Notes under the pieces: generated by a model
The model's database searches: none
Seen by the model: the letters and a program-made list of their open reading frames with translations, nothing else
Told to the model about the DNA's origin: nothing
DNA from: Bacteroidales bacterium
Lineage (GTDB): Bacteria > Bacteroidota > Bacteroidia > Bacteroidales > GCA-2748055
Direction of reading: 5' to 3'
DNA length: 32,858 nt
Assembly (NCBI GenBank): GCA_029210725.1
Contig: JARGFM010000036.1
Coordinates: 1-32,858, forward strand
Position numbers and translations under genes: made by a program
Part shown: positions 1,436 through 29,292 of the stretch, in pieces
Layout of the letters: each line of letters opens with the position of its first letter
Numbering within the stretch: the first letter of the stretch is position 1

Positions 1436-2233
1436 ATGGGCACTACAGACTCAGATCCTATATACTCCATTCTTTACATCGATGATGAAGAGAACAACCT
1501 GATCAGTTTTAAATCAACGTTCAGGCGGGATTATCACATCTATGTAGCCTCCTCCGGTATGGAAGGACTGGAAATTATGGAAAAACATAATATTCAGCTG
1601 GTCATTACCGACCAGCGCATGCCGGATATGTCCGGGATTGAGTTCCTGGAACAGATCGTCCCTCTCTATCCGTATTGCATGCGAATGATCATGACCGGTT
1701 TCAGTGACCTGGATGCTGTTATCCAGGCCATTAACAAAGGGAATATTTATCGCTATATCTCCAAACCCTGGAACAGGGAGGATCTGAAAATAACCATCGA
1801 CAGTGCCCTGGAGGTGTATAACCTTAAATCGCAAAACAAACACCTGATCGATGATCTGAAGGAGGCAAACAGGACCCTGGAACAAAAGGTACTGGAACGG
1901 GCCCGGCAAATTGAGCAACAGCGGCTGAATATTACCGATAGCCTGCATTATGCGAGGCGCATTCAGAAAGCCCTGATGCTTCCATCCGAAGAGCTTGAAA
2001 AGATACTGCCCGACCATTTCATCCTGAATAAACCCAAGGCTATCGTAAGCGGGGATTATTACTGGGTATCCCAGAATGACCATAAACTGATTATTGCAGT
2101 GGCCGACTGCACGGGTCACGGAGTTCCCGGTGCTTTTATGAGCATTATGGGAATTAATTTCCTGAACGAGATCGTAAACATGTCAGGGATCATCAAGGCG
2201 GATGAGATTTTAAATGAACTTCGCAAAAACTGA
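1436..2233 (+). CDS. Response regulator with REC and SpoIIE-type PP2C domain, N-terminal part (frameshifted)
   Basis: Encodes a receiver domain (residues about 10-125; acidic pair in YIDDEEN, phospho-acceptor D59 in LVITDQRMPD, K110 in the ISKPW motif), a coiled coil (about 126-170), and the first part of a SpoIIE-like PP2C serine phosphatase (SGDYYW and VADCTGHGVPGAF carry the metal-binding aspartates). Such proteins couple phosphorelay input to dephosphorylation of anti-anti-sigma-like partners. The frame stops at TGA 2231 in the middle of the phosphatase domain. One extra A in the A5 run at 2225-2229 would restore LRKKLIKSLGQ and run straight into the open frame ending at 2688, so the two parts are one gene of roughly 417 aa. 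The REC domain closely resembles the one in the sigma-54 activator at 29293. No clear ribosome binding site is seen, as usual in this phylum. Confidence 0.88.
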   Translation: MGTTDSDPIYSILYIDDEENNLISFKSTFRRDYHIYVASSGMEGLEIMEKHNIQLVITDQRMPDMSGIEFLEQIVPLYPYCMRMIMTGFSDLDAVIQAINKGNIYRYISKPWNREDLKITIDSALEVYNLKSQNKHLIDDLKEANRTLEQKVLERARQIEQQRLNITDSLHYARRIQKALMLPSEELEKILPDHFILNKPKAIVSGDYYWVSQNDHKLIIAVADCTGHGVPGAFMSIMGINFLNEIVNMSGIIKADEILNELRKN

Positions 2234-2280
2234 TTAAATCGCTCGGGCAGACCGGGCAAAGGGATGAGTCCAAAGACGGT

Positions 2281-2688
2281 ATGGAAATGGCCTTGTGCGT
2301 GGTCGATGCCGGTAAAAACATGCTTCAGTATGCAGGAGCCTTTCGTCCCATGTATCTCTTAAGACAGAACGAGCTTATTTTGATTAAAGGCGATCGTATG
2401 CCCATCGGCATTTATAATGAAGATGAAGTGCCCTTTACCAGCAAAGAAGTCCCCTTTAAGGAGAATGATATGATCTATATGTTCACAGACGGATATCTGG
2501 ACCAGATCGGAGGCCTGGAGAGAAAGACCTTCAAATCCGTAAGATTCAAGGCCCTGCTAAAGGAAATCCACTCCAAAGCGCTCGACGAGCAAAAATCCAT
2601 ACTGCGAGAAGAACATGAGATATGGAGATCTGGCTCGGAGCAGATTGATGATATCCTGATCCTGGGAGTCAGGCTCTCCTTCAAATAG
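2281..2688 (+). CDS. C-terminal half of the REC-PP2C phosphatase (same gene as 1436-2233)
   Basis: This open frame carries the rest of the SpoIIE/PP2C domain: a DGMEMALCVVD stretch, a core sheet region, and the late metal-binding motif FTDGYLDQIGG, ending with EQIDDILILGVRL. The same order of motifs is intact in the GAF-PP2C protein at 27737, where KDGMDMAIAIMD and YSDGYLDQYGG are in one frame with the upstream half. Translation in this frame is meaningful from about 2230, well before the ATG at 2281, so 2281 is not a true start but only the first ATG after the frameshift. The stop codon overlaps the stop region of the convergent kinase gene by 8 bp. If the frameshift is biological, this part would be untranslated and the phosphatase dead. 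Confidence 0.8.
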   Translation: MEMALCVVDAGKNMLQYAGAFRPMYLLRQNELILIKGDRMPIGIYNEDEVPFTSKEVPFKENDMIYMFTDGYLDQIGGLERKTFKSVRFKALLKEIHSKALDEQKSILREEHEIWRSGSEQIDDILILGVRLSFK

Positions 2689-3670
2689 AATTGCCCGTTT
2701 GGGTTCTTGGCAGGGAAATGATAAACTCGGTTCCTTTTCCGGGTTCTGAAAGAACATCGATGTTACCTTTATGCTTTTCTATGATCCCGTAACTGATTGA
2801 AAGACCCAGTCCGCTTCCCTGACCCACTTCCTTGGTAGTAAAAAAAGGATCAAAAATATGCTCTTTCACCTCCGGCGTCATCCCCTCTCCATTATCCTTG
2901 ATGATGATCTTGATCCCGATAGCACTGCCGACCGTCTGGATAAACAATTCACCTTTGCCCTCTTCCATAGCCTGAAGACTGTTATTGATTATATTCATAA
3001 TAACCTGCTTGAGCTGGCCGGGAAAACACTCCACCACTTCAAAATCCCCATAATCCTTATGGACCCGGACTTTCTTCTCCATGATCTGATTCTGGAGAAG
3101 AACCAGAGAGGAATCGATTCCCTCGTGAATGTCGTAGAACTGGCAGGCCTCATCGTCCAGCCGGGAAAAGCTCCAGAGCCCTTTAATTATTTCAGTAGAT
3201 CTGCTTGCCCCCTCTTCAATGCCTTTCAGGAGACTGAAAATCTCCTGGATCAGAAATGAAAAATCCATCTCCTCCTTGATGGCATTTACCTCCGCAAAAT
3301 ACCCGGTCAGTTTATTGGCTTCGACCGTCTTTTCATATTTTTCAATCACAAAGAAGACTTCTTCCAGGTCCTTTTGCAGCGGATAGACATTTCCACTCAG
3401 GAAATTGATGGGATTATTCAGCTCATGCGCTATGCCGGCCGTAAGAACCCCTACAGATGCCAGCTTTTCTGATTGAATTAATTGGGTCTGTGCCAGTTTG
3501 AGGTTTTCGACCATTAATTCCAGCTCATGTTTCTGAATTTCGGTGGCATTCCTGGTCAGCACGACCTCCTCCCTCTGGGTTGCAATAATTTCCCGAAGGG
3601 CCTGGATCTCCTTCTTCTGAGCTTTAACAGTTTCCTGCAGCTCCTGTATCTTATTTTTCAGTTTCTCCAT
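2681..3670 (-). CDS. Soluble NtrB-like sensor histidine kinase
   Basis: A 329-aa histidine kinase with no membrane segment. Residues 1-70 form a long heptad-rich coiled coil (MEKLKNKIQELQETVKAQ and following), and then come the H-box AGIAHELNNP with phospho-acceptor H82, an insert-bearing dimerisation domain, the N-box IINNSLQAM, G1 DNGEGM, F-box FDPFFTTK and G2 GSGLGLS. The HELNNP form of the H-box is typical of NtrB/HPK4-type kinases. Having only a coiled coil as input, it is probably regulated through a partner protein. Its 3' end overlaps the PP2C gene by 8 bp in convergent orientation, making the REC-PP2C protein its most likely phosphotransfer partner; this is inferred from position only. 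Confidence 0.9.
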   Translation of the reverse strand: MEKLKNKIQELQETVKAQKKEIQALREIIATQREEVVLTRNATEIQKHELELMVENLKLAQTQLIQSEKLASVGVLTAGIAHELNNPINFLSGNVYPLQKDLEEVFFVIEKYEKTVEANKLTGYFAEVNAIKEEMDFSFLIQEIFSLLKGIEEGASRSTEIIKGLWSFSRLDDEACQFYDIHEGIDSSLVLLQNQIMEKKVRVHKDYGDFEVVECFPGQLKQVIMNIINNSLQAMEEGKGELFIQTVGSAIGIKIIIKDNGEGMTPEVKEHIFDPFFTTKEVGQGSGLGLSISYGIIEKHKGNIDVLSEPGKGTEFIISLPRTQTGNSI

Positions 3671-4661: not shown

Positions 4662-4886
4662 ATGATTGACAAGATCGACATTCTTCGCAACTACCACGAT
4701 CAGGCAATTGTCATTACACTGGCCAATGAAAAGGAAGTCTTATCAGGAATGATCGTGGATGATACCCCCGACGATCACTGTGTATTTGTGGAAAATCCCC
4801 ACCTGGTGGAATTTTATGAAACCAGAAAAAAATCCCTCATGCACAGAGTCTACTTCAAGGATATGAAAGCCATTGATTACCAGTAA
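4662..4886 (+). CDS. Small 74-aa protein upstream of the metallopeptidase, unknown function
   Basis: A 74-aa acidic cytosolic protein beginning MIDKIDILRNYHDQAI and ending VYFKDMKAIDYQ. The pattern IVITLANEKEVLSGMIVDD followed by a second beta-rich half looks like a small beta-barrel (SH3- or LSm-like), but I cannot name a family. Only 19 nt separate it from the metallopeptidase start, so the two are very likely cotranscribed. In the protealysin/emfourin pairs known from other bacteria, a small inhibitor is encoded next to a cytosolic M4 peptidase; the arrangement here is similar, although no sequence likeness to emfourin is visible to me. Inhibitor, adaptor or RNA-binding roles are all possible. 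Confidence 0.7.
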   Translation: MIDKIDILRNYHDQAIVITLANEKEVLSGMIVDDTPDDHCVFVENPHLVEFYETRKKSLMHRVYFKDMKAIDYQ

Positions 4887-4905
4887 TTGTTAAGAGAAGA
4901 CAGTC

Positions 4906-6039
4906 ATGGCAGGCAGCAGAGTTAAAATCTGGAAACAGGATCCCAGCGTGGAGAGCATTGGGATCCGTTCTTCTTACATATCCACCGAGGTACAGAACGG
5001 GCCGGCCGATCAGGACATCGTTCTTCAGGGCATGCCCCATGTGGTCGCTAACGCGCAAAATGATTTCATCTTCTACCCGGAAGAAAATCCTCTGGAGTTT
5101 GATGCGGTCCACACCTTCTCCATAGTCCGGCAGGTGCTCACCATGCTTCGCCGGGCTTTGAACCGGATGCAGATTACACAAAACTTTAACTGGTTCTGGG
5201 GGCCAGAACCCATTCAGGTATACCCGAGAGCGGGTCTGGATGCTAATGCCTATTACAGCAGAAATGAGAAGGCCCTCCGCTTTTATTATTTTCATCCTTC
5301 GGGAGATACATCAAATCCACTGATCTATAGTTGCCGTTCCTTCGATATTGTGGCTCATGAGGTGGGACATGCTGCCCTGGACTCCCTGAAGCCGGAGTAT
5401 CTGAGCAGCAGCTGGCACCCCCAGACCGGAGGCCTCCATGAATCTTTTGCCGATCTGTTAGCCATATTTACCATGCTGGCCCAGATGGATGTCTGTGAAG
5501 CCATCATCGTGGAGTCCAAAGCGGATCTTCATTCCAAAAGCTTTTTCCCCGCCCTGGCCGAACAGTTCGGCCTGGCATTTGGACAGCCCATGGGCTTGAG
5601 AAATGCCGACAACGACCTTAAAATGAGCGATGTAACCACCGAGGTTCACGATATTTCCAGAGTATTTACCGGAGCCATCTATGATATCCTGGCCGATTTC
5701 TTCGAACTTTCCCAGGATCCTGGTTTATTTGACCAGGCCGAATCCCTCTTCAGGGTCGGTAAATACCTGACCTCCCTGGTCATCGCCTCCATCTGGCAGG
5801 GACCCGATGCCAATGCCACATACGCCGATATCGCCAATAAAATGCTTGAACAGGAAGAAGACAGCGAACGAAAGGAGCTCATCCGGCAGCAGTTCAGGAA
5901 AAGAGAAATCCTGGATGCTCCGGTCGGCCTGGCAGGTGTACAGCCCCGGGACCTCTCCTGGGAAGGCTGTTGCGGAACCATGCGTCTGAAAGAACACCAG
6001 AACCTGTTTGAGAAAAGCATTGGTGCAGCATCCGGGTAG
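4906..6039 (+). CDS. Cytosolic thermolysin-fold (gluzincin, M4-like) metallopeptidase
   Basis: A 377-aa zinc peptidase. The metal site is HEVGH at residues 151-155, with the third ligand E179 in GGLHESFADL, 28 residues after the first histidine. H248 in VHDISRVFTGAIYD matches the position of the transition-state histidine of thermolysin-type enzymes (VHxNSG region). There is no signal peptide or membrane segment, so the enzyme should act in the cytosol unless exported by another route. The N-terminal 140 residues are mixed alpha/beta and may act as a propeptide-like domain. It follows the 74-aa gene by 19 nt and precedes the TPR membrane protein by 124 nt. Substrate unknown; maturation of a peptide made in the same locus is one hypothesis. 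Peptidase class is secure, exact family (M4 versus M36-like) less so. Confidence 0.85.
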   Translation: MAGSRVKIWKQDPSVESIGIRSSYISTEVQNGPADQDIVLQGMPHVVANAQNDFIFYPEENPLEFDAVHTFSIVRQVLTMLRRALNRMQITQNFNWFWGPEPIQVYPRAGLDANAYYSRNEKALRFYYFHPSGDTSNPLIYSCRSFDIVAHEVGHAALDSLKPEYLSSSWHPQTGGLHESFADLLAIFTMLAQMDVCEAIIVESKADLHSKSFFPALAEQFGLAFGQPMGLRNADNDLKMSDVTTEVHDISRVFTGAIYDILADFFELSQDPGLFDQAESLFRVGKYLTSLVIASIWQGPDANATYADIANKMLEQEEDSERKELIRQQFRKREILDAPVGLAGVQPRDLSWEGCCGTMRLKEHQNLFEKSIGAASG

Positions 6040-6163
6040 AGACCCTCTTCCCGGGAAGCATATCCTTGATAATAAAAAACTTACGTTTCTTGGATAAGTC
6101 CTGAAAATGTCGGAAATTATATAGCTTTTTACCGAGACACGCTTACGTAAACCGGCTATAGCT

Positions 6164-8227
6164 ATGAAGCCTGACAAGGTTTATAAGTTTGTTCAGGAGC
6201 TGAAGCGCAGAAGAGTATTTCGGGGAATAATTGTATACGGTGCTTCGACCCTGGTCTTATTTGAAGCTGCCACAAACCTGGCCAATTTCCTTGGCCGCGA
6301 TCGACCGCCCACCTGGTTTGTGGTGCTGCTTGGAGCAGGCTTTATTGTTTCTCTGTGGTTTTCCTGGATCTATGATATTACCCCCGGGGGCATCCGTAAA
6401 ACCGAGTCCGTCTCAGAAGATAAAGTACCCATCCCGAAAAAGGAGATCAGGACCTACCAGACCACAACCTTTGTGGGTGTCCTTATTATTATCGGGCTCC
6501 TTAGTTATAAGCTCATTGATCATGCCAAATCGAAGAAAATCAGGGCACTGGACAAATCCATTGCTGTGCTCCCCCTGGAAGATCATACTTTGAGTCCATC
6601 TCAGGCCAGGGAATTTGAGTTTATTGGGAGTGAGATCACTTACTGTTTAACAAAAGTGAAAGACTACCGGATCGTTCCCTGGGAAGACAGCCGGAACTAT
6701 CCAATACGAAGTAAAAACCGCAGGGAAATAGGAAATGATCTCGCCGTATCCCTACTGGTGGAATGGAAGCCCTTTACCACAGAAGAGGAACGGCATTTAT
6801 CCATTGAGCTGATCTCCGTGGATAATACCTCGCTTATCTGGGGACAAACCTTCGCCATTAATGGCAGCTGGTCAGAAGAAATATGCAGGCTCAGCCGGAA
6901 AATATCAAAAAAAATTACCCGGGAACTTCGAACCTACCTGACCCCGCACGAAAGGGCGCTTATCAGTGAACAGGCCTACCCGGCCCAGGCAAGTCTTTAT
7001 GCCGCCCTGGGGAATTCCTATACCCAGGATGCCTGGACCCGGACCGTAACCGGAGAGATCGATAAGCAGCACAGGAAAAATGCACTCACCGATTCCATTA
7101 GTTTCAGCCGGGCCATAGAATATTTCACCGATGCCATCCAGGAGGACCCATCATTCGCTGAGGCCTATGCAAACCGGGCAAAAGCCATGCTAATGGGGAT
7201 CCAGGCGCGCTTTTTTGACAGGACTGTCCTGGATAAGAGCCGGGAAGATATCGAGCAGGCATTCACAATAAACGAGGATCTCCCTGAGGCCCATGTAGCT
7301 ATGGGTTTTTATTACTGGTATGGATTAGATGAGTATAAACTGGCAGCCGTCTCCTTTGAAAAAGCGTGTGAATTGAGTCCCAATTCAACGGAGAACCTCT
7401 TCTATTTGTCAAAAATATATTCCACTCTTGGAAACTGGAGGGAAGTCCTGGTTCTGAGCAACAAAGTATTTAAATCCAATCCCCAGAATGCTCTCTACTA
7501 CACCAACCTGGGGATATCTTATCAATTCCTGGATGAATTCGAAAAAGCAGACCGGAGTCAGGACCGTGCCATTGAGTTAATGCCCCATTGGTATGCTCCA
7601 TATGTTAATAAAGCCATTTCACAGGCGTACAGGGGAGAGATGGACAAAGCCAGGACTACCATGGTTGAAGCTGTTGAAAACACGGGCAAAAGTTTTAACA
7701 GATTCTTTGCCGAATTGAACCTGTATGAAGGAAACTACCTCCTTGCCGCACAGCTAATTGAACAGGTTCCTGAGCAAGAATTCAGGGATCTGGGTGAGAG
7801 CCCGGGAGATGCCTTCCTGATCAAAGCAAAAATCCACAAATATGCCGGCCATGAAGCCCTTTCCACAGACAATTTAAGGCTGGCAGCTGCCTATTTTGAG
7901 GATCAGCTGCAAAAGCATCCGGAGGATCCGGATACTCAAAGCAAACTGGGACTTGCCAAAGCCGGAATGGGAAAAAAACAACAGGCCGTCGAGCACGGAG
8001 AAATGGCACTGATGCTGGGAACTCAAAATTACAGCGCTGTGAGCTTCCCCTCCATTCTCCTTGCCATGGTTCAGACATACGTCCTGTGCAATGACCATGA
8101 ATCTGCCCTAAACACCCTGAAAGACCTGAAGGATACACGCTCCCTATATACCCTCGATTATCTTAAAACGGACCCGGACCTGCAGCCCCTGTTTGAGGAC
8201 CCGGGCTTTAAAATTTCTAACCTTTAA
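6164..8227 (+). CDS. Membrane-anchored TolB/FlgO-like TPR protein
   Basis: A 687-aa protein. It starts with the ELKRRRVFRGIIVYG module, which has two membrane helices (about residues 21-43 and 52-71) and the WIYDITPGGIRKT motif, then a third helix (about 103-117). A TolB-N/FlgO-like alpha/beta domain follows (from KSIAVLPLED, about 130-265), and the C-terminal half is TPR repeats (for example EYFTDAIQEDPSFAEAYANRA, AAVSFEKACELSPNS, ADRSQDRAIELMPHW). In related proteins this N-terminal module is fused to adenylate cyclase or winged-helix domains; neither is present here. Probable role: scaffold or sensor in the inner membrane. The next gene starts 11 nt after the stop, so it is in an operon with the 72-aa protein and the radical SAM enzyme. 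A paralogue lies at 23572-25356. Confidence 0.82.
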   Translation: MKPDKVYKFVQELKRRRVFRGIIVYGASTLVLFEAATNLANFLGRDRPPTWFVVLLGAGFIVSLWFSWIYDITPGGIRKTESVSEDKVPIPKKEIRTYQTTTFVGVLIIIGLLSYKLIDHAKSKKIRALDKSIAVLPLEDHTLSPSQAREFEFIGSEITYCLTKVKDYRIVPWEDSRNYPIRSKNRREIGNDLAVSLLVEWKPFTTEEERHLSIELISVDNTSLIWGQTFAINGSWSEEICRLSRKISKKITRELRTYLTPHERALISEQAYPAQASLYAALGNSYTQDAWTRTVTGEIDKQHRKNALTDSISFSRAIEYFTDAIQEDPSFAEAYANRAKAMLMGIQARFFDRTVLDKSREDIEQAFTINEDLPEAHVAMGFYYWYGLDEYKLAAVSFEKACELSPNSTENLFYLSKIYSTLGNWREVLVLSNKVFKSNPQNALYYTNLGISYQFLDEFEKADRSQDRAIELMPHWYAPYVNKAISQAYRGEMDKARTTMVEAVENTGKSFNRFFAELNLYEGNYLLAAQLIEQVPEQEFRDLGESPGDAFLIKAKIHKYAGHEALSTDNLRLAAAYFEDQLQKHPEDPDTQSKLGLAKAGMGKKQQAVEHGEMALMLGTQNYSAVSFPSILLAMVQTYVLCNDHESALNTLKDLKDTRSLYTLDYLKTDPDLQPLFEDPGFKISNL

Positions 8228-8238
8228 TACAGTAAATT

Positions 8239-8457
8239 ATGTCCTACGAACTACCCATTGTCTGGCATCTGGACACAAAAAGTATCAAAGAAGTACGCCT
8301 TTCACCACCAGACAGGTTAACACGCATCAGAGATATCATGAAAGAATTACAGGAGGGCCGCAAACAGCTGGACCCCACCTTAAAGGAAATCACGGCAATT
8401 TGTAATGAAACTACTCATCCGACAGATCCGGAAGAGTCAAATAGTCAGCAGGATTAA
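8239..8457 (+). CDS. Small 72-aa protein between TPR and radical SAM genes, unknown function
   Basis: A 72-aa protein starting MSYELPIVWHLDTKSIKE, with a central amphipathic helix (RLTRIRDIMKELQEGRKQL), a single cysteine at about residue 55 and a polar, acidic, Pro/Ser/Thr/Gln-rich tail. It starts 11 nt after the TPR gene stop and ends 12 nt before the radical SAM start, so it is translated from the same message. Its size and place next to a B12-radical SAM gene are what a ribosomal peptide precursor or a partner protein would show, but no leader motif (GG, Nif11, NHLP) is visible and the tail is not Cys/Ser/Thr-dense. I do not recognise the family. Confidence 0.72.
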   Translation: MSYELPIVWHLDTKSIKEVRLSPPDRLTRIRDIMKELQEGRKQLDPTLKEITAICNETTHPTDPEESNSQQD

Positions 8458-8469
8458 AACTTTCGATTT

Positions 8470-10062
8470 ATGAATAGCAACTCCGTGGTTTTTATCGCTT
8501 TCCAGGAGCGTGAAAACCTCGGCATCGGATATATGCATGCCATTCTTTCCGGGGCCGGCTATAAGGTAAGCACAATCGATGTCAGAAAAGATAAGGCAGA
8601 GATTCTGGAAGAATTGCGCGAGCTGGATCCCATTTTGGTCGGCTTCTCGGTAATTTTTGAAAATCACATCTGCGATTTTCAGGAACTTATCGCTTACCTG
8701 CGCTCCGGGGGTATTCAAAGTCATTTCACGGCCGGTGGTCACTTTGCCACACTGAGGCCTGCCGAATTGTTTGCGCTCTCCCCGGCACTTGACTCCCTGG
8801 TCAGGGTGGAAGGAGAGCACAGCATTCTTGATCTGGTAAATCATCTTCAAATTCAAAAGGGAAAAGACTGGACCAGGGTGACAGGCATCTCCTACAGGGA
8901 TCACGGAACCCTGGTGAATAATGCCTCCCGTGCCCTGGAGCCTGATCTGGATAACTTCCCCTACCCCTTTCGTTCAGACTTTAAAGAATACGCGCTTGAA
9001 AAAAAATATACCACCCTGTTAGCCGGAAGGGGTTGCCTTCATAATTGCGCCTTTTGCGACATCAGGGAATTCTATAGCCAGGCAGCCGGTCCGGTCAAGC
9101 GGATCAGAAAGCCCGAAAAGGTTGTGGAGGAGATGGCCTTCCTGCACCAGGAACACCATTGCAGAATTTTTCTCTTTCAGGATGATGATTTTCCGGTACT
9201 TACCAACAGAACCTCTGTCTGGGTGGAGGAATTCTGCAAAGCTCTGAAGGAACAGAAACTGATTGGAAAGATCCTGTGGAAAATCAATTGCCGTACCGAT
9301 GAAGTGGAGCGGGAAGTATTTGAGCTGATGAAAATGCATGGCCTTTATAAAGTGTATCTGGGAATTGAAGATGGCACCGATACCGGACTGAGGCGGATGA
9401 ACAAGCGGCTCCTGGTGTCTGATAACCTGGAGGCTGTTCAGACACTGAAAGACCTGGCCATCCGTATAGATTATGGCTTTATGCTCTTCCAGCCCTCCTC
9501 CACCTTCCACTCCATAAACGAAAACCTCGCATTCCTCGAAGAGATATGCCGCGATGGCTATATGCCTGTAACCTTCCTGAAAATGATGCCTTACCTGGGC
9601 ACCAGGATTGAGAAGGACCTTAGAAAAGAGGGACGCTTGAAGGGGCAGCCCGGGTTTTTAGATTACGATTTCCCCGATCCGGCCATGGATAACTTTTATG
9701 CATTTACAGACAAAGTTTTTAATATCTGGATCCATGCAGGAGACGGACTGGGTAACTATTTGAAATGGGTAATAAACTACCTGGCTGTATTTACCTTCTT
9801 CCATGGATCCTTTGAAGGAATTGAACGCAGCTCGGAAAGCATCCGGAAGCTGGTGGCCGATTCCAACAACTTTATCATTCAGACCATGAAGGAGCTATCA
9901 TCCCTTTTTGAATCCGGAAAATCCGGCCCGCAAATGGATAAGGCCCTGGATAGGGTAAAAAGCTCCATCGGGAAAAAACACCAGAGCGCCCTGAAAGAGG
10001 CCGCTGCTTTACTGGAGCAAATCGAAATATATTACCTGACCCGGGATATCTTTATGGAATGA
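8470..10062 (+). CDS. B12-binding-domain radical SAM enzyme
   Basis: A 530-aa enzyme of the B12-radical SAM superfamily. Residues 1-130 form a Rossmann-like cobalamin-binding domain (LGIGYMHAILSGAGYKV; LVGFSVIFENH; TAGGHFATLRPAEL; VRVEGEHSILDL). The 4Fe-4S cluster/SAM site is GRGCLHNCAFCD with C189, C193 and C196 (CxxxCxxC), and YLGIEDGTDTGLRRMNK is typical of the TIM-barrel core. The last 130 residues are helical and family-specific. Such enzymes methylate unactivated carbons or carry out ring and rearrangement chemistry; the substrate cannot be read from sequence. The DxHxxG lower-ligand motif of classic B12 proteins is not apparent, which is usual for this superfamily. It is in an operon with the 72-aa and TPR genes and is followed 95 nt later by an exported TPR protein. 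Confidence 0.88.
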   Translation: MNSNSVVFIAFQERENLGIGYMHAILSGAGYKVSTIDVRKDKAEILEELRELDPILVGFSVIFENHICDFQELIAYLRSGGIQSHFTAGGHFATLRPAELFALSPALDSLVRVEGEHSILDLVNHLQIQKGKDWTRVTGISYRDHGTLVNNASRALEPDLDNFPYPFRSDFKEYALEKKYTTLLAGRGCLHNCAFCDIREFYSQAAGPVKRIRKPEKVVEEMAFLHQEHHCRIFLFQDDDFPVLTNRTSVWVEEFCKALKEQKLIGKILWKINCRTDEVEREVFELMKMHGLYKVYLGIEDGTDTGLRRMNKRLLVSDNLEAVQTLKDLAIRIDYGFMLFQPSSTFHSINENLAFLEEICRDGYMPVTFLKMMPYLGTRIEKDLRKEGRLKGQPGFLDYDFPDPAMDNFYAFTDKVFNIWIHAGDGLGNYLKWVINYLAVFTFFHGSFEGIERSSESIRKLVADSNNFIIQTMKELSSLFESGKSGPQMDKALDRVKSSIGKKHQSALKEAAALLEQIEIYYLTRDIFME

Positions 10063-10157
10063 CCTGCTTTTAAAAAACAATAAACCGGAACAGATGTTAA
10101 TACAGAAATATGGACTGGTAACACCCTGTTCCCTAAATTGGTGCTGTCAGGCAAAAA

Positions 10158-11510
10158 ATGAAAAACCCAACTATGAAGAAAAAGAGCTTGAGGACATTAG
10201 TAATCACTATACTTCTGTTCCTGCTGGTGATGCCCGGAGTGTCGCAGGAAAGCAGAGTAAAGATTTATAGTGCAAATTCGGACACCACCGCCTGTGGACC
10301 AATGGTCTCCGCTTACAGGGATTTTTTCAGGATCAAACTTTACAATGATGCCCTGGTCAACTGGCGTCCTGTCTTTAGAGATTGCCCGTCATTCAGCGAA
10401 ATGATCTATGTCGATGGAGTCACTATGTACCGCTCCTTCATAGAGCTTGCACCGGAAGGTCCGGTCAGGGAGGGCCTTATCGATACCCTGATGCTCATTT
10501 ACGACCGAAGGATGGAAAATTTCCTGGGAGAAGGAAATGTGCTGGGTCGTAAGGGAAGAGATCTGCTCAACTACCGGGGATCGGATATAGAACAGGTTCA
10601 GAAGGCCCACACGATGCTTAGAAGGAGCATCGAGCTTCAGGGAGTGAAATCCCTGGAAACCACCATGGTCCTCTGCATGTCCTCTGGAATTGCACTGAAA
10701 AAAGAAGGTGTGATAGATGAGAAGCAAGTCCTTGAGGATTATCTGATGGTACTGAGCAACCTGATCCGGCTCCAGAAAGAGAGCTCGCGTTGGGACAGGG
10801 CCAGGACCGCTATCGATGAAATGATCTTCAGAGAGGACATTGTTTCCTGTAAAGCGCTCGACCGTTACTACGAAGCAATATTTGAAGAGAACCAGGATGA
10901 TCTTGCTTTCCTGGAGACCGTAATCTCCTCCTATCATAATGCGGGATGCGACCGTTCAGAGTTTTTTGCGGTCGCTTCAGAGAATCTTTACAGACTTGAA
11001 CCTGGTCCTGAATCCGCTCATAATGTGGCTATCCGGTTTATTTCTGTAAACGATCTTGAAAAGGCAGCCAAATACCTGAAAGAGGCCGTGCAGGCAGAGA
11101 CCATCGACCCGGAAACCAAGGCCCAATGGTATTATGAACTATCTGTGGTGAGCATGGCTCTTCAGGACAATTGCCAGGCCATCGTCTATGCCCGTGAGGC
11201 CATTAAACTGAAGAGTGATTTCGGGCAGGCCTATATCCTCCTCGGAGATGCCTTCATTGCATCCCGGAACGGCCTGGGTGATGAGTTTCAGCAACGCACG
11301 GCTTACTGGGCTGCAGCTGATAAGTATGCCAGTGCTGCCTCCATGGAGCCCTCTCTTGCAGAAGAGATCAACATAAAACTAAAAGAGTCTGCCAGCCAGT
11401 ATCCCGGCAATGAGGATATCTTCTTCCATGATATCAAAGAAGGAGAGCAGTTTATTGTAGGCGGATGTATCAATGAAAAAACCACCGTCCGGGCAAGGAA
11501 AGAACTTTAA
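10158..11510 (+). CDS. Exported TPR-repeat protein
   Basis: A 450-aa protein with an N-terminal signal peptide (KKKSLRTLVITILLFLLVMPGVSQ). The start could be ATG 10158 or the in-frame ATG 10173, both ahead of the signal. The mature protein is all-helical with degenerate TPR units, clearest near the C terminus (NDLEKAAKYLKEAVQAE; NCQAIVYAREAIKLKSDFGQAYILLGDAF). A conserved-looking N-terminal stretch (DTTACGPMVSAYRDFFRIKLY, with paired cysteines C46/C74 region) and a final GEQFIVGGCINEKTTVRARKE stretch frame the repeats. TPR proteins with this layout are common and uncharacterised in Bacteroidota. Co-directional with the radical SAM gene but separated by 95 nt, so possibly its own transcription unit. 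Confidence 0.8.
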   Translation: MKNPTMKKKSLRTLVITILLFLLVMPGVSQESRVKIYSANSDTTACGPMVSAYRDFFRIKLYNDALVNWRPVFRDCPSFSEMIYVDGVTMYRSFIELAPEGPVREGLIDTLMLIYDRRMENFLGEGNVLGRKGRDLLNYRGSDIEQVQKAHTMLRRSIELQGVKSLETTMVLCMSSGIALKKEGVIDEKQVLEDYLMVLSNLIRLQKESSRWDRARTAIDEMIFREDIVSCKALDRYYEAIFEENQDDLAFLETVISSYHNAGCDRSEFFAVASENLYRLEPGPESAHNVAIRFISVNDLEKAAKYLKEAVQAETIDPETKAQWYYELSVVSMALQDNCQAIVYAREAIKLKSDFGQAYILLGDAFIASRNGLGDEFQQRTAYWAAADKYASAASMEPSLAEEINIKLKESASQYPGNEDIFFHDIKEGEQFIVGGCINEKTTVRARKEL

Positions 11511-12248: not shown

Positions 12249-12358
12249 CCTGTTATGTTTTAGAAACGCGACAATTCTTAAATGGCCCATGTAAAACGCA
12301 AAAACCCGAAAGATGTTTTCTCATTCGCTCACTTTTCAGAATCAAGTCCAAAAGTCAT

Positions 12359-12366
12359 TACATTTG
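12359..12366 (+). promoter_or_regulatory. Candidate -7 box (TACATTTG) of the aminotransferase gene
   Basis: Exact match to the Bacteroidota TAnnTTTG element, ending 5 nt before ATG 12372. No good -33 TTG is present at the expected distance. If used, the transcript would be leaderless or nearly so. Confidence 0.4.
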
Positions 12367-12371
12367 AAACC

Positions 12372-13187
12372 ATGAACCGATCCGACTACTCCTATTTCAA
12401 CGGTGACCTGGTACCCTACGGGGATCTGAATCTGCATATAAGCGATTTGCTATTTCAAAGGGGATATGGCGTTTTTGACTTCTTTCGCTGCCGGAACGGG
12501 AGCATCCCCTGGCTGGAGGACTATGTGAAAAGACTTTTCAGCTCCCTGGAGTATTCGGCTATTGAACTGGATCTGGACCAGGAACAGTTTATTTCCCTGA
12601 TTCACGAACTTCAACAAAAGAACAGATTGATAAACAGTGCATTCAAGGTGATTATCACAGGGGGCTATTCCGAGAGCCTGGAATCAGTTACCGGCCGGGC
12701 AAACATCATGGTCCTGAACATCCCCTGGAACAAACCACCCGATGAGACCTTCGAGAATGGAGTACAGCTGATCCGGGAAGAATTTGTCCGCCCCAACCCC
12801 GAGCTTAAATCACTTTATTACCTCAACACCCTGAAACTTCAAAAAAAAATGAGGGAGTACAAGGCCGTGGATGTCTTGTTCCATACCGATCGGATCTCTG
12901 AAGCTTCACGTGCCAATCTCTTTTTTATAAAGAGTGGTCGTATATATACCCCCGCCAGCAACATACTCAAAGGGATCACACGAAAGCAGATACTGTCGCT
13001 GTTCCCGGAGATCCGGGTGGAAGACATTGAGGCCCGCTTCCTTTACGATTTCGATGAACTCTTTCTGACCAGTACCTCCAGGGATGTAACCCCGGTAGTA
13101 TCGGTGGAAGGACAAAAAATCGGCAAAGGCACCCCGGGGCCCCTCACCCGGGAAATCCAGGCGGCATTCCGTGCAGAAGGGTGGTAG
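12372..13187 (+). CDS. Class IV PLP-dependent aminotransferase
   Basis: A 271-aa fold-type IV aminotransferase (branched-chain aminotransferase / D-amino acid aminotransferase / aminodeoxychorismate lyase group). Key features: FQRGYGVFDFFRCRNG near the N terminus, the catalytic lysine K146 in ELKSLYYLNTL, E177 in RISEASRANLFF (PLP ring-nitrogen contact), and TPASNILKGITRKQI and FLTSTSRDVTPV near the C terminus. I chose ATG 12372 because homology begins there; the 30 codons upstream, back to 12282, are unlike the family and overlap a promoter-like box. The substrate within class IV is not decidable by eye. It stands alone, divergent from the barrel gene, so it probably serves general amino acid or folate metabolism. 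Confidence 0.85.
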   Translation: MNRSDYSYFNGDLVPYGDLNLHISDLLFQRGYGVFDFFRCRNGSIPWLEDYVKRLFSSLEYSAIELDLDQEQFISLIHELQQKNRLINSAFKVIITGGYSESLESVTGRANIMVLNIPWNKPPDETFENGVQLIREEFVRPNPELKSLYYLNTLKLQKKMREYKAVDVLFHTDRISEASRANLFFIKSGRIYTPASNILKGITRKQILSLFPEIRVEDIEARFLYDFDELFLTSTSRDVTPVVSVEGQKIGKGTPGPLTREIQAAFRAEGW

Positions 13188-15963: not shown

Positions 15964-17736
15964 TTACACCCCGAACTGCATTTCACTCAGGTTTTTATAG
16001 ATGCCGTCAGCTAATTTCATCAACTGCACGTGGGTGCCCTGCTCAGCAATTTTCCCCTGATCGATCACCACAATATTATCTGCCTTCCGAATGGTGGATA
16101 GCCGGTGAGCAATGACAATGGAAGTCCGACCCACCATTAATTTCTCCAGTGCATCCTGCACCCATTTTTCTGATTCCGAGTCGAGCGAAGAGGTGGCCTC
16201 ATCGAGTATCAGGATCCTGGGATTCTTCAATACGGCCCTGGCTATGGCAATGCGCTGGCGTTGTCCGCCGGATAACTGAGTGCCCCGTTCTCCCACCCGG
16301 GTATCCAGTGTATCAGGGAACCTGTTAATAAACTCCATGGCATTGGCCTGCCGGGCGGCATCCAGGATCTCCTCATCGGTAGCCGAGGGTTTCCCATAAG
16401 CTATGTTCTCTTTGATGGTCCCTCCAAACAGAAAAATATCCTGAGGAACCAGAGAGATCTGACTCCTTAACACAGATAGGGGAATGTCATGGCAGTCGGT
16501 GCCGTCATAGAACAGCTCTCCTTTTTCCGGATAATGGAGCATCAGGAGCAGGGAGGCCAGTGTGGTTTTTCCAGCGCCGCTGGAACCCACGAAAGCAATC
16601 AGTTGATTGGGATCGATATTCAGGCTGATATTCTGAAGCACTGCCTCTTCCCGCCTGGAAGGGTAGGAAAAACTAAGGTTTTTCAGCTGAATGCTGCCTT
16701 CCAGCTGGAATTCTTCTCTGATCTCACCAGGTTCTTCCAGCTTTTCCTCCCCTTCGTCAAAGAGTTCAAACAGGTCTTCGGTGGCCCCGATGAATCTTTG
16801 AATATTGGTGAACAGGTTGGCCAGTCCTCCGATATTTCCTCCTACAAACACCGAATAAATGACAAAGGAGAAAAGATCGCCCGAAGCCAGTTCGCCCATA
16901 GCCATTAAGCGCGACCCCTGCCATACCACCGCAGAGATCGCCCCGAAAATTCCAAAGATGATAAAGGAAGAGAAGGCTCCCCTGTATTTGCCGCTTTTCA
17001 TCCCCAGGGCCGCTATCTCGATGGTAAGCTTTTTATAACGGTTCATCTCCAGATACTCATTGGTATAAGCCTTCACACTCTGGATGCCCTGCAGGGTCTC
17101 TTCAACAACCGTATTGGATTCTGCAACCTGTTTTTGAACCTCTTTGGAATACCGGCGTATAAATCGTCCGAATATCCTGGCCAGCACCATCATGGGTGGC
17201 AGGATGGCCAGCATAAAGAGGGTCAGTTTCACCGAGGTGAGGGCCAGCAGGACGGTCCCTCCGATGATAATAACGATCTGCCTGATAAACTCGGCCAGGG
17301 TGGTGGTCAGCGTTTCCTGCAGCAGCGCCACATCTGCAGAGATCCGGCTGTTAAGCTCACCCACTCGTCTAAGTTCAAAAAAACGAATGGGCAGTTTAAT
17401 AAGATGATTATAGGTAGAACCCCTTAAGGATGCCAGGGATTTTTCAGTGACATTCACAAAGAGAATCACCCGGAAATAAGAAAATACCGACTGGATGAGG
17501 ATAAGGATCCCGAGTAAAAGCGCAGTTTGATTGATGGCCTGCTCCAGCGAACCTTCATTTCCGGAATTCACCAGGTCTCCGAGCAATTTGGGGAAAGCCA
17601 GGCTGGTAAGGCTGGATCCCAGCAGAAAGAACATGCCCAGCAGGTATTCCCCCTGGAATGGACGTATATAACTATATAGTTTTAAGGAGTTTCGGAGGCC
17701 TTCGCGTGTGATCTTTCTTTTGGGTGGCTCTGCCAT
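15964..17736 (-). CDS. ABC transporter, MsbA/multidrug-exporter type (fused TMD-NBD)
   Basis: A 590-aa half-transporter. Start ATG 17736 (MAEPPKRKITREGL) was chosen over the longer frame because it lies 7 nt after the upstream gene's stop. The transmembrane domain spans about residues 30-320 with six hydrophobic segments, followed by the ATPase: Walker A GSSGAGKT at 384-391, Q-loop in VPQDIFLF, signature LSGGQ at 488-492, Walker B ILILDEA at 508-514 and the H-loop in VIAHRLST. All catalytic elements are intact, so it should be active as a homodimer exporting lipids, drugs or peptides. It is the last gene of a three-gene operon with the MDR oxidoreductase and the NAD(P)-binding protein. Confidence 0.92.
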   Translation of the reverse strand: MAEPPKRKITREGLRNSLKLYSYIRPFQGEYLLGMFFLLGSSLTSLAFPKLLGDLVNSGNEGSLEQAINQTALLLGILILIQSVFSYFRVILFVNVTEKSLASLRGSTYNHLIKLPIRFFELRRVGELNSRISADVALLQETLTTTLAEFIRQIVIIIGGTVLLALTSVKLTLFMLAILPPMMVLARIFGRFIRRYSKEVQKQVAESNTVVEETLQGIQSVKAYTNEYLEMNRYKKLTIEIAALGMKSGKYRGAFSSFIIFGIFGAISAVVWQGSRLMAMGELASGDLFSFVIYSVFVGGNIGGLANLFTNIQRFIGATEDLFELFDEGEEKLEEPGEIREEFQLEGSIQLKNLSFSYPSRREEAVLQNISLNIDPNQLIAFVGSSGAGKTTLASLLLMLHYPEKGELFYDGTDCHDIPLSVLRSQISLVPQDIFLFGGTIKENIAYGKPSATDEEILDAARQANAMEFINRFPDTLDTRVGERGTQLSGGQRQRIAIARAVLKNPRILILDEATSSLDSESEKWVQDALEKLMVGRTSIVIAHRLSTIRKADNIVVIDQGKIAEQGTHVQLMKLADGIYKNLSEMQFGV

Positions 17737-17743
17737 AGAATAC

Positions 17744-18739
17744 TCATATTTTAACGACCATCTTACCTTTGTTCCTGCCCTCAAAGAGATCCAGGAAAGC
17801 CTGCGGGATCAAATCAAAACCCTCCACCAGGGTTTCTGCATGCCGCAGTTTACCTTCGGTCAGCCAGCCCGATAATTGGACCAAGGCTCCGGGAAATCCA
17901 GCCTCATAATCATTTACAATAAACCCCTGCATCAGGGCACTGTTGCGTACCAGAAATGGCTGAACGCTAATGCTCTGGGGCAGAGAGCTTGCGTTATAAA
18001 CCGAAATGGCCCCGCATACCACGATTCTGGCAAAGCGATTGATTTTCACCAGGACCGCATCTGAAATCTCACCTCCCACATTATCGAAATACACATCCAC
18101 TCCATCGGGACAGGCAGTGGCTATGGCTTTTCTCATGTTCCGGGTGCTTCTGTAATTGATAGCTGCATCAAAGCCGAATTCAGAGGTGAGCATCCCGGCC
18201 TTTTCATCCGATCCGGCGATACCAACCACGCGGCAGCCACGGATTTTCGCAATCTGGCCTGCCACGCTCCCCACTGCACCTGCAGCGCCAGAAACCACCA
18301 CGGTCTCCCCTTTTTTTGGCTTCCCGATTTCGGACAAACCCAGGTAGGCCGTAAGACCCGTCATTCCCAAAACTCCCAGATAAGCGGAAAGCGGGGCTTT
18401 ATCCGCATCCACCTTATGCAGACCCTGACCATCGGATGCCAGATATTCCTTCCACTCCAGCATTCCGGAAACATAATCCCCTTCGATAAATCCGGGGTGC
18501 TTTGATTCAATCACCTGAGCAATTACCCCGGAGCGAATGGCTTTGTCCAGTTCAAACGGAGCCACATAGGATTTCGCATCGTTCATCCGGCCTCTCAGAT
18601 AGGGGTCCACAGACACAAAGCCTGTCTTTAACATGACTTCCCCTGCACGTATAACCGGCATGGCTTCCCTGACAAATTTGAAATCCGAAAGCAGGGGCTT
18701 TCCCTTTGGTCTTTTAGCTAGCAATATGGCTCGATTCAT
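17744..18739 (-). CDS. NADP-dependent MDR oxidoreductase (prostaglandin/2-alkenal reductase-like)
   Basis: A 331-aa medium-chain reductase of the zinc-free PTGR / CurA-type group. Visible features: an N-terminal GroES-like part with VDPYLRGRMND, the cofactor-binding GAAGAVGSVAG at residues 151-161, YFDNVGGE, and FIVNDYE near the C terminus, all typical of 2-alkenal or 15-oxoprostaglandin reductases that reduce activated C=C bonds with NADPH. No structural or catalytic zinc cysteines are present. Start ATG 18739 shares one base with the stop codon of the preceding gene, and its stop lies 7 nt before the ABC gene, so translation is probably coupled. Confidence 0.88.
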   Translation of the reverse strand: MNRAILLAKRPKGKPLLSDFKFVREAMPVIRAGEVMLKTGFVSVDPYLRGRMNDAKSYVAPFELDKAIRSGVIAQVIESKHPGFIEGDYVSGMLEWKEYLASDGQGLHKVDADKAPLSAYLGVLGMTGLTAYLGLSEIGKPKKGETVVVSGAAGAVGSVAGQIAKIRGCRVVGIAGSDEKAGMLTSEFGFDAAINYRSTRNMRKAIATACPDGVDVYFDNVGGEISDAVLVKINRFARIVVCGAISVYNASSLPQSISVQPFLVRNSALMQGFIVNDYEAGFPGALVQLSGWLTEGKLRHAETLVEGFDLIPQAFLDLFEGRNKGKMVVKI

Positions 18740-23571: not shown

Positions 23572-25356
23572 TCAGTTATGCCTTGGATGAGGCAGGTTCA
23601 TGCTGTCCAGGACGGCCAGAAAACGGGCGCTGTCATGCAAGGCTTCAAATCTGCCCCCTGTTCCGATATAGGGCATATTGGGATTGTGTATGGCAAGCCC
23701 CTTTTCAAGCGCATCTATGGCTTTCCTATGAGCCCCGATCCGGTAATAGTCCACCGCCAATGAAATGGGCCTGGAGGAATACCTTTCGCCGCAAAGCTCT
23801 TTCAGTCGCACGACTTCCTCATAAGCTACCTGTTTTCCGGAATCCCTGTATATGGAAATCAGGTCCAGATCAGGCTCCCCAGAAAGTGAGGCGGATAAAT
23901 TACTCTGTTGAATTTCAAGGCTTTTTGTGTATTCTCCAAGATTGTAGTAAGCATTTTCCCTCTGGTAATGTGTAAAGGAATGGTCCGGATCAATTCGAAG
24001 TGCTTTCTTAATGGATTCCAGCACAACCCGGTCCTGTCCGGCACCTTTCTGGACCACAGAATAAAGTGCCAGGATCAATGGATTCATGGGGTCCAGGGCC
24101 AGGGCCAGTTCGGCCTGGGTCGTTGCTTCAGCCATTCGCTGAAGGATCATCAATAAATGGGCATAGTACATTCTGGACATGACATGGTTGGGGTTAACTG
24201 CCAGAGCCTTCAGGAATTCCTTCTCCCCCTTTTCCCAGTTCCATTCGTACCAGGTGGAGATTACAGCAACGCAAAAATGGGAATCCGGGAAATCGGGATC
24301 CAGTTCAAAGGCCTGGTCCAGGTTCTCATAAACCTTCTCTAAACCCGCCTGGATTTCCACCATGCCCATTTGCATTCTTCCAATCCAAACAAGTGCCATC
24401 GTTGAATAAAGCGGCGCCCATTCAGAGTATTTCTCAATGGCCTGGTTTAATATCTCTTCAGCTTCATTCAGGGCATCCGGGCCCAGATCTCCCCAGTGTT
24501 TATAACTTTTAATATAGGCATCTATAGCTTCCCCGTCCCCGGACCTGTCCCTGATCAGTATCACTTCCTCCTTTTCGGTCAGCTGGATCAGAACCTCTTC
24601 AGCAATCTTTTTAGTGACCCTGTTATACATATTCAGGATCTGGCTTTTATCCTCTTTATAGTCGCCTACCCACAGTTGCTTTTCATCTCCGTTTGTGCTA
24701 ACCAGCCTGAATTGCATACAAATACTGTCACCCAGGCACATCACACTGGCCTCCACCACGGCATCCACACCCAGCTCACCAGCAATATCCTTAGCGGTCA
24801 TTTCTGCTTTCTCAAACACCCCGGAGGAGGTTTTTCCGATAACCCGCAGGTTGCTGACACGCCCCATATCACCTATTAGAAGTGAGTGCATACCCTCTAC
24901 CATATTTCCCAGCTGCGTATCTCCGGTATAGTTATCGAACGGAAGAATAACGAGCGACTGGATATCACCGGCATGCAATTTTGCCGGGCCTTGCAATACA
25001 TTCATCAGGATCAATCCGGCTATGACCATAAAACTCGCATAGGTAGCAATTTTCCATGCATTGGGAACACTCTTCGTTTCCCCCTCTTCTATTTCTTCTA
25101 AAGGACGGGTTTTTTCAATACCTTCCGGTGTCAGATCATAGATCCATCCCAGGATCGCAGCCAGCGGAAACCCCACTGCCAGTAAAATAATCACGATGGT
25201 GGATAAGCCCCCGGGAAGGTTCAGCGGCTCACTCAGATTATTGATAAGCTCAATCAGCACAAACGAAGCCGAGCCATAGACCCATGTCACATGAACTACC
25301 CTTCGTCTTTTCAATTCTGACCAGAAACGGGATAATTTGTTGGGATTGGGGCTCAT
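23572..25356 (-). CDS. Membrane-anchored TolB/FlgO-like TPR protein (paralogue of 6164-8227)
   Basis: A 594-aa protein with the same architecture as the gene at 6164: the SELKRRRVVHVTWVYG module, two membrane helices, GWIYDLTPEGIEKT, a third helix (about residues 100-117), a TolB-like domain starting QSLVILPFDNYTGD (about 133-250), then TPR repeats (EEILNQAIEKYSEWAPLYSTMA; KEFLKALAVNPNHVMSRMYYA; QAELALALDPMNPLILA; SIKKALRIDPDHS). This copy keeps the canonical NYTGD / GMHSLLIGDMGRVSNLRVIGKTS signature of the TolB-like domain, which the 6164 copy has largely lost. Two copies in one window suggest a lineage-specific family expansion. No catalytic domain is seen. Role: probable inner-membrane scaffold or signalling adaptor. 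Confidence 0.82.
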   Translation of the reverse strand: MSPNPNKLSRFWSELKRRRVVHVTWVYGSASFVLIELINNLSEPLNLPGGLSTIVIILLAVGFPLAAILGWIYDLTPEGIEKTRPLEEIEEGETKSVPNAWKIATYASFMVIAGLILMNVLQGPAKLHAGDIQSLVILPFDNYTGDTQLGNMVEGMHSLLIGDMGRVSNLRVIGKTSSGVFEKAEMTAKDIAGELGVDAVVEASVMCLGDSICMQFRLVSTNGDEKQLWVGDYKEDKSQILNMYNRVTKKIAEEVLIQLTEKEEVILIRDRSGDGEAIDAYIKSYKHWGDLGPDALNEAEEILNQAIEKYSEWAPLYSTMALVWIGRMQMGMVEIQAGLEKVYENLDQAFELDPDFPDSHFCVAVISTWYEWNWEKGEKEFLKALAVNPNHVMSRMYYAHLLMILQRMAEATTQAELALALDPMNPLILALYSVVQKGAGQDRVVLESIKKALRIDPDHSFTHYQRENAYYNLGEYTKSLEIQQSNLSASLSGEPDLDLISIYRDSGKQVAYEEVVRLKELCGERYSSRPISLAVDYYRIGAHRKAIDALEKGLAIHNPNMPYIGTGGRFEALHDSARFLAVLDSMNLPHPRHN

Positions 25357-27713: not shown

Positions 27714-27721
27714 TATCTTTG
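27714..27721 (+). promoter_or_regulatory. Candidate -7 box (TATCTTTG) of the GAF-PP2C gene
   Basis: Exact TAnnTTTG match, 15 nt before ATG 27737. It contains the alternative TTG start at 27719, which argues against that start. Confidence 0.5.
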
Positions 27722-27736
27722 CACAAAATTCCAATA

Positions 27737-29152: not shown

Positions 29153-29254
29153 AAAAACAATTCTCCATTTCAGGCACCTGCCCCGGAAAGAAGCAGTCCA
29201 ATGATTTTCAGTGCCGAAAAACGACCCTCTGCCGGAACCATATATCATTAATTG

Positions 29255-29262
29255 TATCTTTG
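29255..29262 (+). promoter_or_regulatory. Candidate -7 box (TATCTTTG) of the sigma-54 activator gene
   Basis: Exact TAnnTTTG match, 30 nt before ATG 29293; identical to the box before the GAF-PP2C gene. No clear -33 element. Confidence 0.45.
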
Positions 29263-29292
29263 TGTAAACAGCATCTCCGGAATTCCAAAGGA

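Follow-up and report, generated by a model that had tools for sequence, protein, structure and literature searches.

A small-protein gene kept beside a B12-binding radical SAM enzyme in many bacterial phyla suggests a protein-modification pair, joined in Bacteroidota by a sensor-like TPR protein

Which of the genes around a B12-binding radical S-adenosylmethionine (SAM) enzyme in a Bacteroidales bacterium belong together, and on what might the enzyme act? We addressed this question for a 32,858-nucleotide (nt) stretch of DNA (contig JARGFM010000036.1; hereafter the window), which makes up the whole of C36, one of the 70 contigs of a 3.8-Mb genome. A sequence-only reading had proposed that six successive plus-strand genes in this window form a single locus resembling those for ribosomally synthesised and post-translationally modified peptides (RiPPs). 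All six open reading frames (ORFs) are present within positions 4662-11510, and the gaps between them are 19, 124, 11, 12 and 95 nt, as had been described for the tight spacing and for the wider gap after a putative peptidase. Comparison with other genomes indicates that the conserved core is three of these genes, which encode a tetratricopeptide repeat (TPR) protein (6164-8227), a small protein of 72 amino acids (aa; 8239-8457) and the enzyme (8470-10062). Since only these three travel together, the grouping of six fails and the six genes are, by this comparison, not one locus. The small-protein gene lies directly before the enzyme in widely divergent bacteria, an arrangement that points to chemical alteration of the small protein by the enzyme; in one bacterial group, the Bacteroidota, a sensor-like TPR protein has joined the pair.

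The comparison covered 41 relatives, counting the window genome itself, and six of them (G003, G004, G006, G008, G009 and G010) carry a close relative of the enzyme (46-70% identity, E <1e-40). A TPR gene, a small ORF of 64-90 aa and the enzyme follow one another in G003, G004, G006 and G008, all of which have the upstream side on the contig; the contigs of G009 and G010 end within the enzyme. In four genomes of the same genus, a small ORF whose N-terminus is related occupies the corresponding position, and ORF 8239-8457 thus looks like a real gene. A wider sample came from a scan of an 84,980-species collection with a five-row enzyme alignment (A1), which yielded 70 loci. Only loci with an exact copy of either of two short enzyme peptides could be hit; they are therefore a sample, and one selected by the enzyme, not by the small protein. 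Two loci (L049 and L102), in which the enzyme match begins inside the gene at a contig edge, were excluded from every count, leaving 68.

For the small protein we built a hidden Markov model (HMM) in four iterations, seeded with 28 upstream ORFs that fit a loose W-x-[DN]-P pattern, taking “just upstream” to mean ending no more than 750 nt from the enzyme. The iterated model matched the just-upstream ORF in 58 of the 68 loci and nothing else among 8313 ORFs (30-250 aa). With eight further upstream small ORFs accepted by eye (L074 among them), the small gene is found upstream of the enzyme in 66/68 loci, at gaps of 2-383 nt (median 91); L060 and L107 have none. Co-occurrence of the 72-aa and enzyme genes, which the sequence-only reading had put forward for checking, is thus borne out. 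The same reading had tied the 72-aa gene and the peptidase together as companions of the enzyme; the first is found in 66/68 loci, the second in none.

The HMM seeds came from upstream ORFs, and for this reason transfer was tested across phyla. A model built from 21 non-Bacteroidota seeds matched the upstream ORF in 10/22 Bacteroidota loci at E≤1, with 0 matches elsewhere among 2490 ORFs. Among 395 sampled genomes of the phylum, six carry the enzyme at E≤1e-90, namely the window genome and five of one other genus. In this held-out genus, a W-D-P small ORF lies just upstream of the enzyme in 5/5 genomes, and a small-protein profile (A5) made without the held-out genomes ranked those five ORFs as the top five among 644; E was 1.5e-5 or lower for four of them and 0.27 for the fifth. 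Each of 20 host genomes has a single strong enzyme match, and 19 of them have exactly one small gene (profile A5, E≤0.1), whose coordinates place it next to the enzyme every time; in the remaining genome (G058, locus L063) a divergent small gene was accepted by eye. Within 199 genomes of the phylum of G046 (locus L084, titled Acidobacteriaceae), G046 alone has the enzyme (E≤1e-80), and it is likewise the only one with the small protein (E≤0.001). Since G046 supplied a row of the profile, the informative count is that the small protein occurs without the enzyme in 0/198 Acidobacteriota genomes, by a profile that would miss divergent small proteins such as those of Bacteroidota.

The system is rare and patchy in distribution. 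Rows of the enzyme tree carry ten phylum labels, many of them on metagenome bins, and one row is labelled Bathyarchaeota. In that locus (L050, CP070759.1, titled Candidatus Bathyarchaeota) the pair nests among bacterial sequences in the tree, pointing to gene transfer or mis-binning. As to mobile carriage, searches of a plasmid collection (L103 enzyme, E limit 1e-60) and of a phage collection (window enzyme, E limit 1e-20) gave no match.

Identification of the 530-aa protein as a B12-radical SAM enzyme proved sound. Pfam finds B12-binding (6e-15) and Radical_SAM (2e-15) domains, and residues 189-196 (CLHNCAFC; 9034-9057, plus strand) form a Cx3Cx2C cluster motif, a pattern present in 64/64 full-length homologues checked. 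Both features of class B radical SAM enzymes, an N-terminal B12-binding domain plus a radical SAM domain and the Cx3Cx2C motif, are therefore present. The nearest solved folds to a model of a relative, the L103 enzyme, are OxsB, TsrM, MgmA, AprD4, TokK and CysS (Foldseek E from 2e-25 for OxsB to 3e-16 for CysS), and phmmer with the window enzyme matches OxsB, 9ccb (MgmA) and TokK. The enzyme is thus like the class B enzymes OxsB, TsrM, MgmA, TokK and CysS in its domains and cluster motif, but differs from them in sequence (15-18% identity in the named fold matches), in NCBIfam scores far under cut-off and in having an obligate small-protein partner. Among the best 25 of 29 NCBIfam matches of the window enzyme, the highest score was for BchE (125.2 bits vs a cut-off of 481.35), and no B12-radical SAM subfamily (BchE, HpnJ, PhpK, ApyD and others) came near its cut-off, either in those 25 matches or for two further members. 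A RiPP recognition element (RRE; PqqD-like) was not found in the window enzyme by Pfam or among the same 25 NCBIfam matches, although divergent RREs could escape such searches. PADLOC gave weak overlaps only (PDC-M51A, 38 bits, for the enzyme; PDC-M71B, 31 bits, for one TPR protein), and identity with a known defence system was rejected on that ground.

The small protein has no Pfam family at cut-off (window protein and 10 members) and no NCBIfam family at cut-off (window protein and 4 others), and no signal peptide is visible in it by eye. What is conserved is a short N-terminal motif, PIVWHLDT in the window (8254-8277, plus strand), with the general form aromatic-x-x-Asp-Pro. Small ORFs of the close relatives share this motif (PIVWHLDT, PIVWFLD, PPPWEMNP, PLPFIMDP) and little else. 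The form W-x(0-2)-[DN]-P is present in 30/65 listed sequences (23 by pattern and 7 with WDP among those printed) and a looser aromatic form in 31/65; in the 28 sequences picked for A5, the motif Asp is invariant and the Pro reaches at least 90%. Over 90 locus pairs whose enzymes are 60-97% identical (mean 68%), the motif is 58% identical and the tail 36% over aligned columns, and motif identity exceeds that of the tail in 80/90 of these non-independent pairs. The tail, which is helical, thus changes more quickly than the motif. In G008 (L028:15837-16309 region), one enzyme is preceded by two small proteins in tandem that have PIVWF(L/V)D in common but different tails. Small proteins at L057:2168-2506 and L059:4663-4998 contain a five-cysteine run (STCCCCCS) and, by eye, two motif-like stretches.

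AlphaFold2 was run on read-through chains of small protein and enzyme from L103 (652 aa) and from the window (607 aa). The alignments for these folds omitted unpaired small-protein rows, which failed to align with the joined ones; L066 in A3 was the one exception. In the L103 chain, the enzyme is mostly at a predicted local distance difference test (pLDDT) score >90, and one long small-protein helix is at 66-75. In the window chain, helices are predicted at small-protein residues 26-38 and 44-55 (8314-8403, plus strand), with a mean pLDDT of 84 at residues 31-50 and values <50 at residues 1-24.

The third core gene of the Bacteroidota version encodes a sensor-like protein of 687 aa that had been described as membrane TPR/TolB-like. 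Its TPRs are above Pfam cut-offs and its N-terminal membrane segments can be read by eye, but the TolB-like part of the description found no Pfam hit. In a 66-row enzyme tree, the Bacteroidota rows form a single clade of 23 (support 100/99). In 20/22 fetched loci, and likewise in the window (21/23 in total), the enzyme has a related TPR gene that ends no more than 1 kb upstream of it. L043 has a 101-aa TPR-like fragment at a contig edge (by eye), and in L060, which is without the small gene, the TPR gene is displaced to -4645. Clustering of ORFs of at least 100 aa around the 68 loci found, besides the enzyme, only the TPR family fixed in place; this clustering covers families in at least 4 loci, with ORF calling crude in GC-rich loci and many contigs short.

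Judged by eye from their sequences, twelve of the TPR proteins have an N-terminus of membrane type and nine one of TIR type; matches of Pfam TIR_2 to the three TIR-type N-termini scanned were under cut-off (E 0.0004-0.022). The window TPR protein matches 7/9 TIR-type proteins at 190-271 bits and the other two (L045 and L046) at only 69-73 bits, and its residues 129-683 align to residues 255-794 of the L047 protein at 31% identity. Judging from these matches, the TPR bodies under membrane or TIR-like N-termini are related. Each N-terminal type needs 2 changes on the tree, and one change is compatible with the well-supported branches; a swap of N-termini is the simplest reading of this pattern. 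No DNA-binding domain was among the Pfam hits of the window protein and 8 other TPR proteins. A second membrane-TPR protein of the window (23572-25356, minus strand), with neither small protein nor enzyme beside it, is a more distant paralogue of the core TPR protein, at 115 bits against the 190-271 bits of the seven TIR-type proteins.

Genes around the TIR-type loci add separate observations. In six of these loci (L047, L051, L053, L054, L056 and L062), the TIR-TPR gene is preceded by genes for a SiaC phosphoprotein and an RyR-SpoIIE phosphatase-like protein (one representative per family scanned), an arrangement reminiscent of partner-switching signalling operons; L101 has an RyR-SpoIIE gene downstream. 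Beside the TIR-type locus L047, a 554-aa protein without a Pfam match (L047:9600-11264, minus strand) has an N-terminus that by eye presumably resembles SLOG-type proteins.

We read the unit as a protein-modification pair, in which the small protein would be modified by the enzyme in the cell and, in Bacteroidota, read by the TPR protein, and we give this reading a probability of about 0.5. The most natural interpretation of a B12/SAM radical enzyme that comes with a single obligate small protein, a short conserved motif and no apparent pathway genes is that the partner protein is its substrate. The small protein, made without a visible signal peptide, would dock on the enzyme through its C-terminal helices and so offer its N-terminal motif to the active site. 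There the enzyme would modify one motif residue, most likely by C-methylation, which is the commonest reaction of the B12-radical SAM class. That a protein glutamine methylase (MgmA) and a Trp methylase (TsrM) are among the nearest folds favours this reading. The modified protein would remain in the cell and act there; in Bacteroidota its most likely reader would be the product of the TPR gene immediately before its own, with membrane helices (in the window) or a TIR-like domain as the N-terminal output part. A doubtful further step is that the Bacteroidota module serves intracellular signalling or defence: the enzyme would mark a tiny protein, a TPR protein with interchangeable output (membrane helices or TIR) would read the mark, and the status of B12, SAM or iron-sulphur, or an invader, would set the output, with the marked protein working elsewhere without a reader.

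Several observations weigh against a modified substrate. The reverse cross-phylum HMM matches only 4/46 loci at E≤1 (0 elsewhere among 5823 ORFs), no cross-phylum match either way reaches E≤0.001, and plain BLAST with the window small protein reaches just 1/68 loci; genomic position is the strong part of the pairing. Motif conservation has gaps, in that 4/65 small proteins are without any motif form searched, and in Bacteroidota the motif is loose, its Asp replaceable by Asn, His or Glu. AlphaFold2 left the motif unplaced, at pLDDT <50 in both chains. Neither a dedicated protease nor an exporter accompanies the pair (families in at least 4 of the 68 loci), and the gap between small gene and enzyme is no richer in RNA structure than control gaps (z <-2 in 8/51 vs 19/92); an attenuator hairpin in this gap was rejected, there being no excess over the controls. 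No extra small-gene copies were found elsewhere in the 20 host genomes, where extras would have favoured a substrate, and the exact one-to-one gene number fits an accessory subunit as well or better. Nothing decisively separates substrate from accessory subunit, and the modification itself is something that we infer.

An accessory role is indeed a serious rival: the small protein could be an obligate subunit or chaperone, and the true substrate a lipid, cofactor or other small molecule. We regard this as possible, if on the unlikely side. One-to-one gene number in 19/20 genomes fits it, as do the helical tail with its predicted helices (pLDDT 84 in the window read-through model) and the fact that the best NCBIfam score among the matches listed belongs to a metabolic enzyme, BchE, at 125 bits and far under cut-off. 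Yet the tail, as the expected docking part, evolves faster than the motif, and in G008 one enzyme serves two different small proteins. Outside Bacteroidota, moreover, no gene family, whether metabolic, ligase or protease, recurs at a fixed place beside the pair (families in at least 4 loci), so that no pathway for a small-molecule substrate is apparent. A third role for the small protein would be that of a carrier: a residue would be built or altered on it by the enzyme and subsequently released as a small product. Such a scheme has been proposed for pearlins, where a dedicated ligase adds the residue at the C-terminus. The conserved motif would suit a scaffold, and 3-thia-amino acids are built on a carrier peptide (PMC9303977). 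The lack of a ligase or protease at a fixed place and the N-terminal position of the motif make a carrier improbable.

Least probable by far is the single six-gene RiPP-like locus with the peptidase as maturation protease, which drew on the window gene order and its gaps of 19, 11 and 12 nt. The peptidase gene (4906-6039, plus strand) encodes a cytosolic-looking 377-aa protein that had been called a gluzincin without signal peptide; HEVGH at residue 151, a downstream Glu and the absence of an N-terminal signal visible by eye agree with this, while Peptidase_M4 matches only below threshold (E 0.089). The gene is present in 3/41 relatives, and in the other two, where the protein is 88-89% identical, it lies >10 kb from the enzyme (G008) or on a different contig (G003). 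BLAST found 0 relatives among 6649 ORFs (≥40 aa) of the 68 loci. A six-gene unit with this peptidase as processing enzyme was thus rejected, synteny speaking strongly against it, and the preferred reading as a modification pair does without the peptidase.

The other flanking genes also appear separable from the core. The 74-aa protein (4662-4886, plus strand) is 68-73% identical to proteins of six relatives; its gene is present in 7/41 genomes, adjoins the TPR gene in G003 but not in G008, and has relatives in 2/68 loci by the same BLAST. A sub-threshold Sm_like match (E 0.14) was seen in this protein. By their distribution, the peptidase and 74-aa genes are bystanders, and the suggestion that the run may hold two separate units was well placed, since neither travels with the core. 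The exported TPR gene (10158-11510, plus strand) is an optional neighbour and probably a bystander too: it follows the enzyme in G008/L038 (57% identity in G008) but not in G004, the contigs of G003 and G006 end there, and relatives occur in 1/68 loci.

Further afield, the run holds no ABC exporter, as had been noted; a full one (ABC_membrane and ABC_tran; 15964-17784, minus strand) is found some 5.9 kb downstream from the enzyme, with no sign of a link to the pair. An ABC-ATPase family is present in 10 loci at scattered positions. Linkage of an aminotransferase gene (12282-13187) was rejected, as a 74.5% relative is found solely in L038 and three others are <29%. The window has no tRNA and no Rfam match reaching gathering score. 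The contig is rich in signalling genes, with a response regulator near a histidine kinase (1436-3670) and a GAF-SpoIIE protein next to a sigma-54-domain response regulator (27719-30201, plus strand).

How does the pair compare with known systems? Like a RiPP cluster, it has a small gene conserved beside a modifying-type enzyme (66/68 loci, 8 by eye), but the dedicated protease or exporter (families in at least 4 loci) and the RRE (Pfam and NCBIfam) of such clusters were not found. In bottromycin, the modified part is the N-terminus of the precursor, a follower peptide comes after it, and the pathway employs radical SAM methyltransferases (PMC5103208). Bottromycin-type RiPPs thus resemble the pair in an N-terminal target with a trailing part; the pair differs in coming without tailoring or hydrolytic genes and with a single enzyme whose modifying role is putative. 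ApyD, the B12-radical SAM enzyme of aminopyruvatide, beta-methylates Tyr in a peptide, and its gene clusters include an RRE and an MNIO enzyme, in most cases together with a P450 (PMC10635010). The likeness lies in a possible aromatic target residue of a ribosomal peptide, and the three members tested score about 90 bits against the ApyD model; the differences are that model's cut-off of 750 bits and the RRE, MNIO and P450, which belong to ApyD clusters. TsrM methylates free Trp (PMC5682303).

In the FtsH ternary conflict systems, a radical SAM enzyme likely modifies a standalone peptide effector (PMC7159879), which is similar in combining such an enzyme with a separate peptide gene; other passages of the same source have peptide-processing genes with TIR and TPR effectors. 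These systems are defined there by vWA, MoxR or FtsH partners, none of which was identified among our partly scanned neighbours. RRNPP signalling likewise places a TPR gene beside a small-protein gene, as in 21/23 Bacteroidota-clade loci, but its secreted propeptide and the DNA-binding domain of its receptor were not found (signal by eye; Pfam for the window and 8 TPR proteins). TPR-like genes in Bacteroidales RiPP clusters, and the binding of pheromones by TPRs in other bacteria, are treated in PMC10352776, the main text of which has no occurrence of B12 or cobalamin, and the sections of PMC9062424 considered here treat the SPASM family. We recognised no description of the small gene-enzyme pair in open-licence literature, and one may exist elsewhere.

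B12-radical SAM enzymes carry out chemistry that few other enzymes manage, and many of their families have no known substrate; they have been called a largely untapped reservoir (PMC8992657). For one such family, scattered over many phyla, synteny now offers a likely substrate in the form of a small protein with a short conserved motif. If it is true that the TPR protein of Bacteroidota reads the mark, B12-radical chemistry would be linked to TIR-type signalling.

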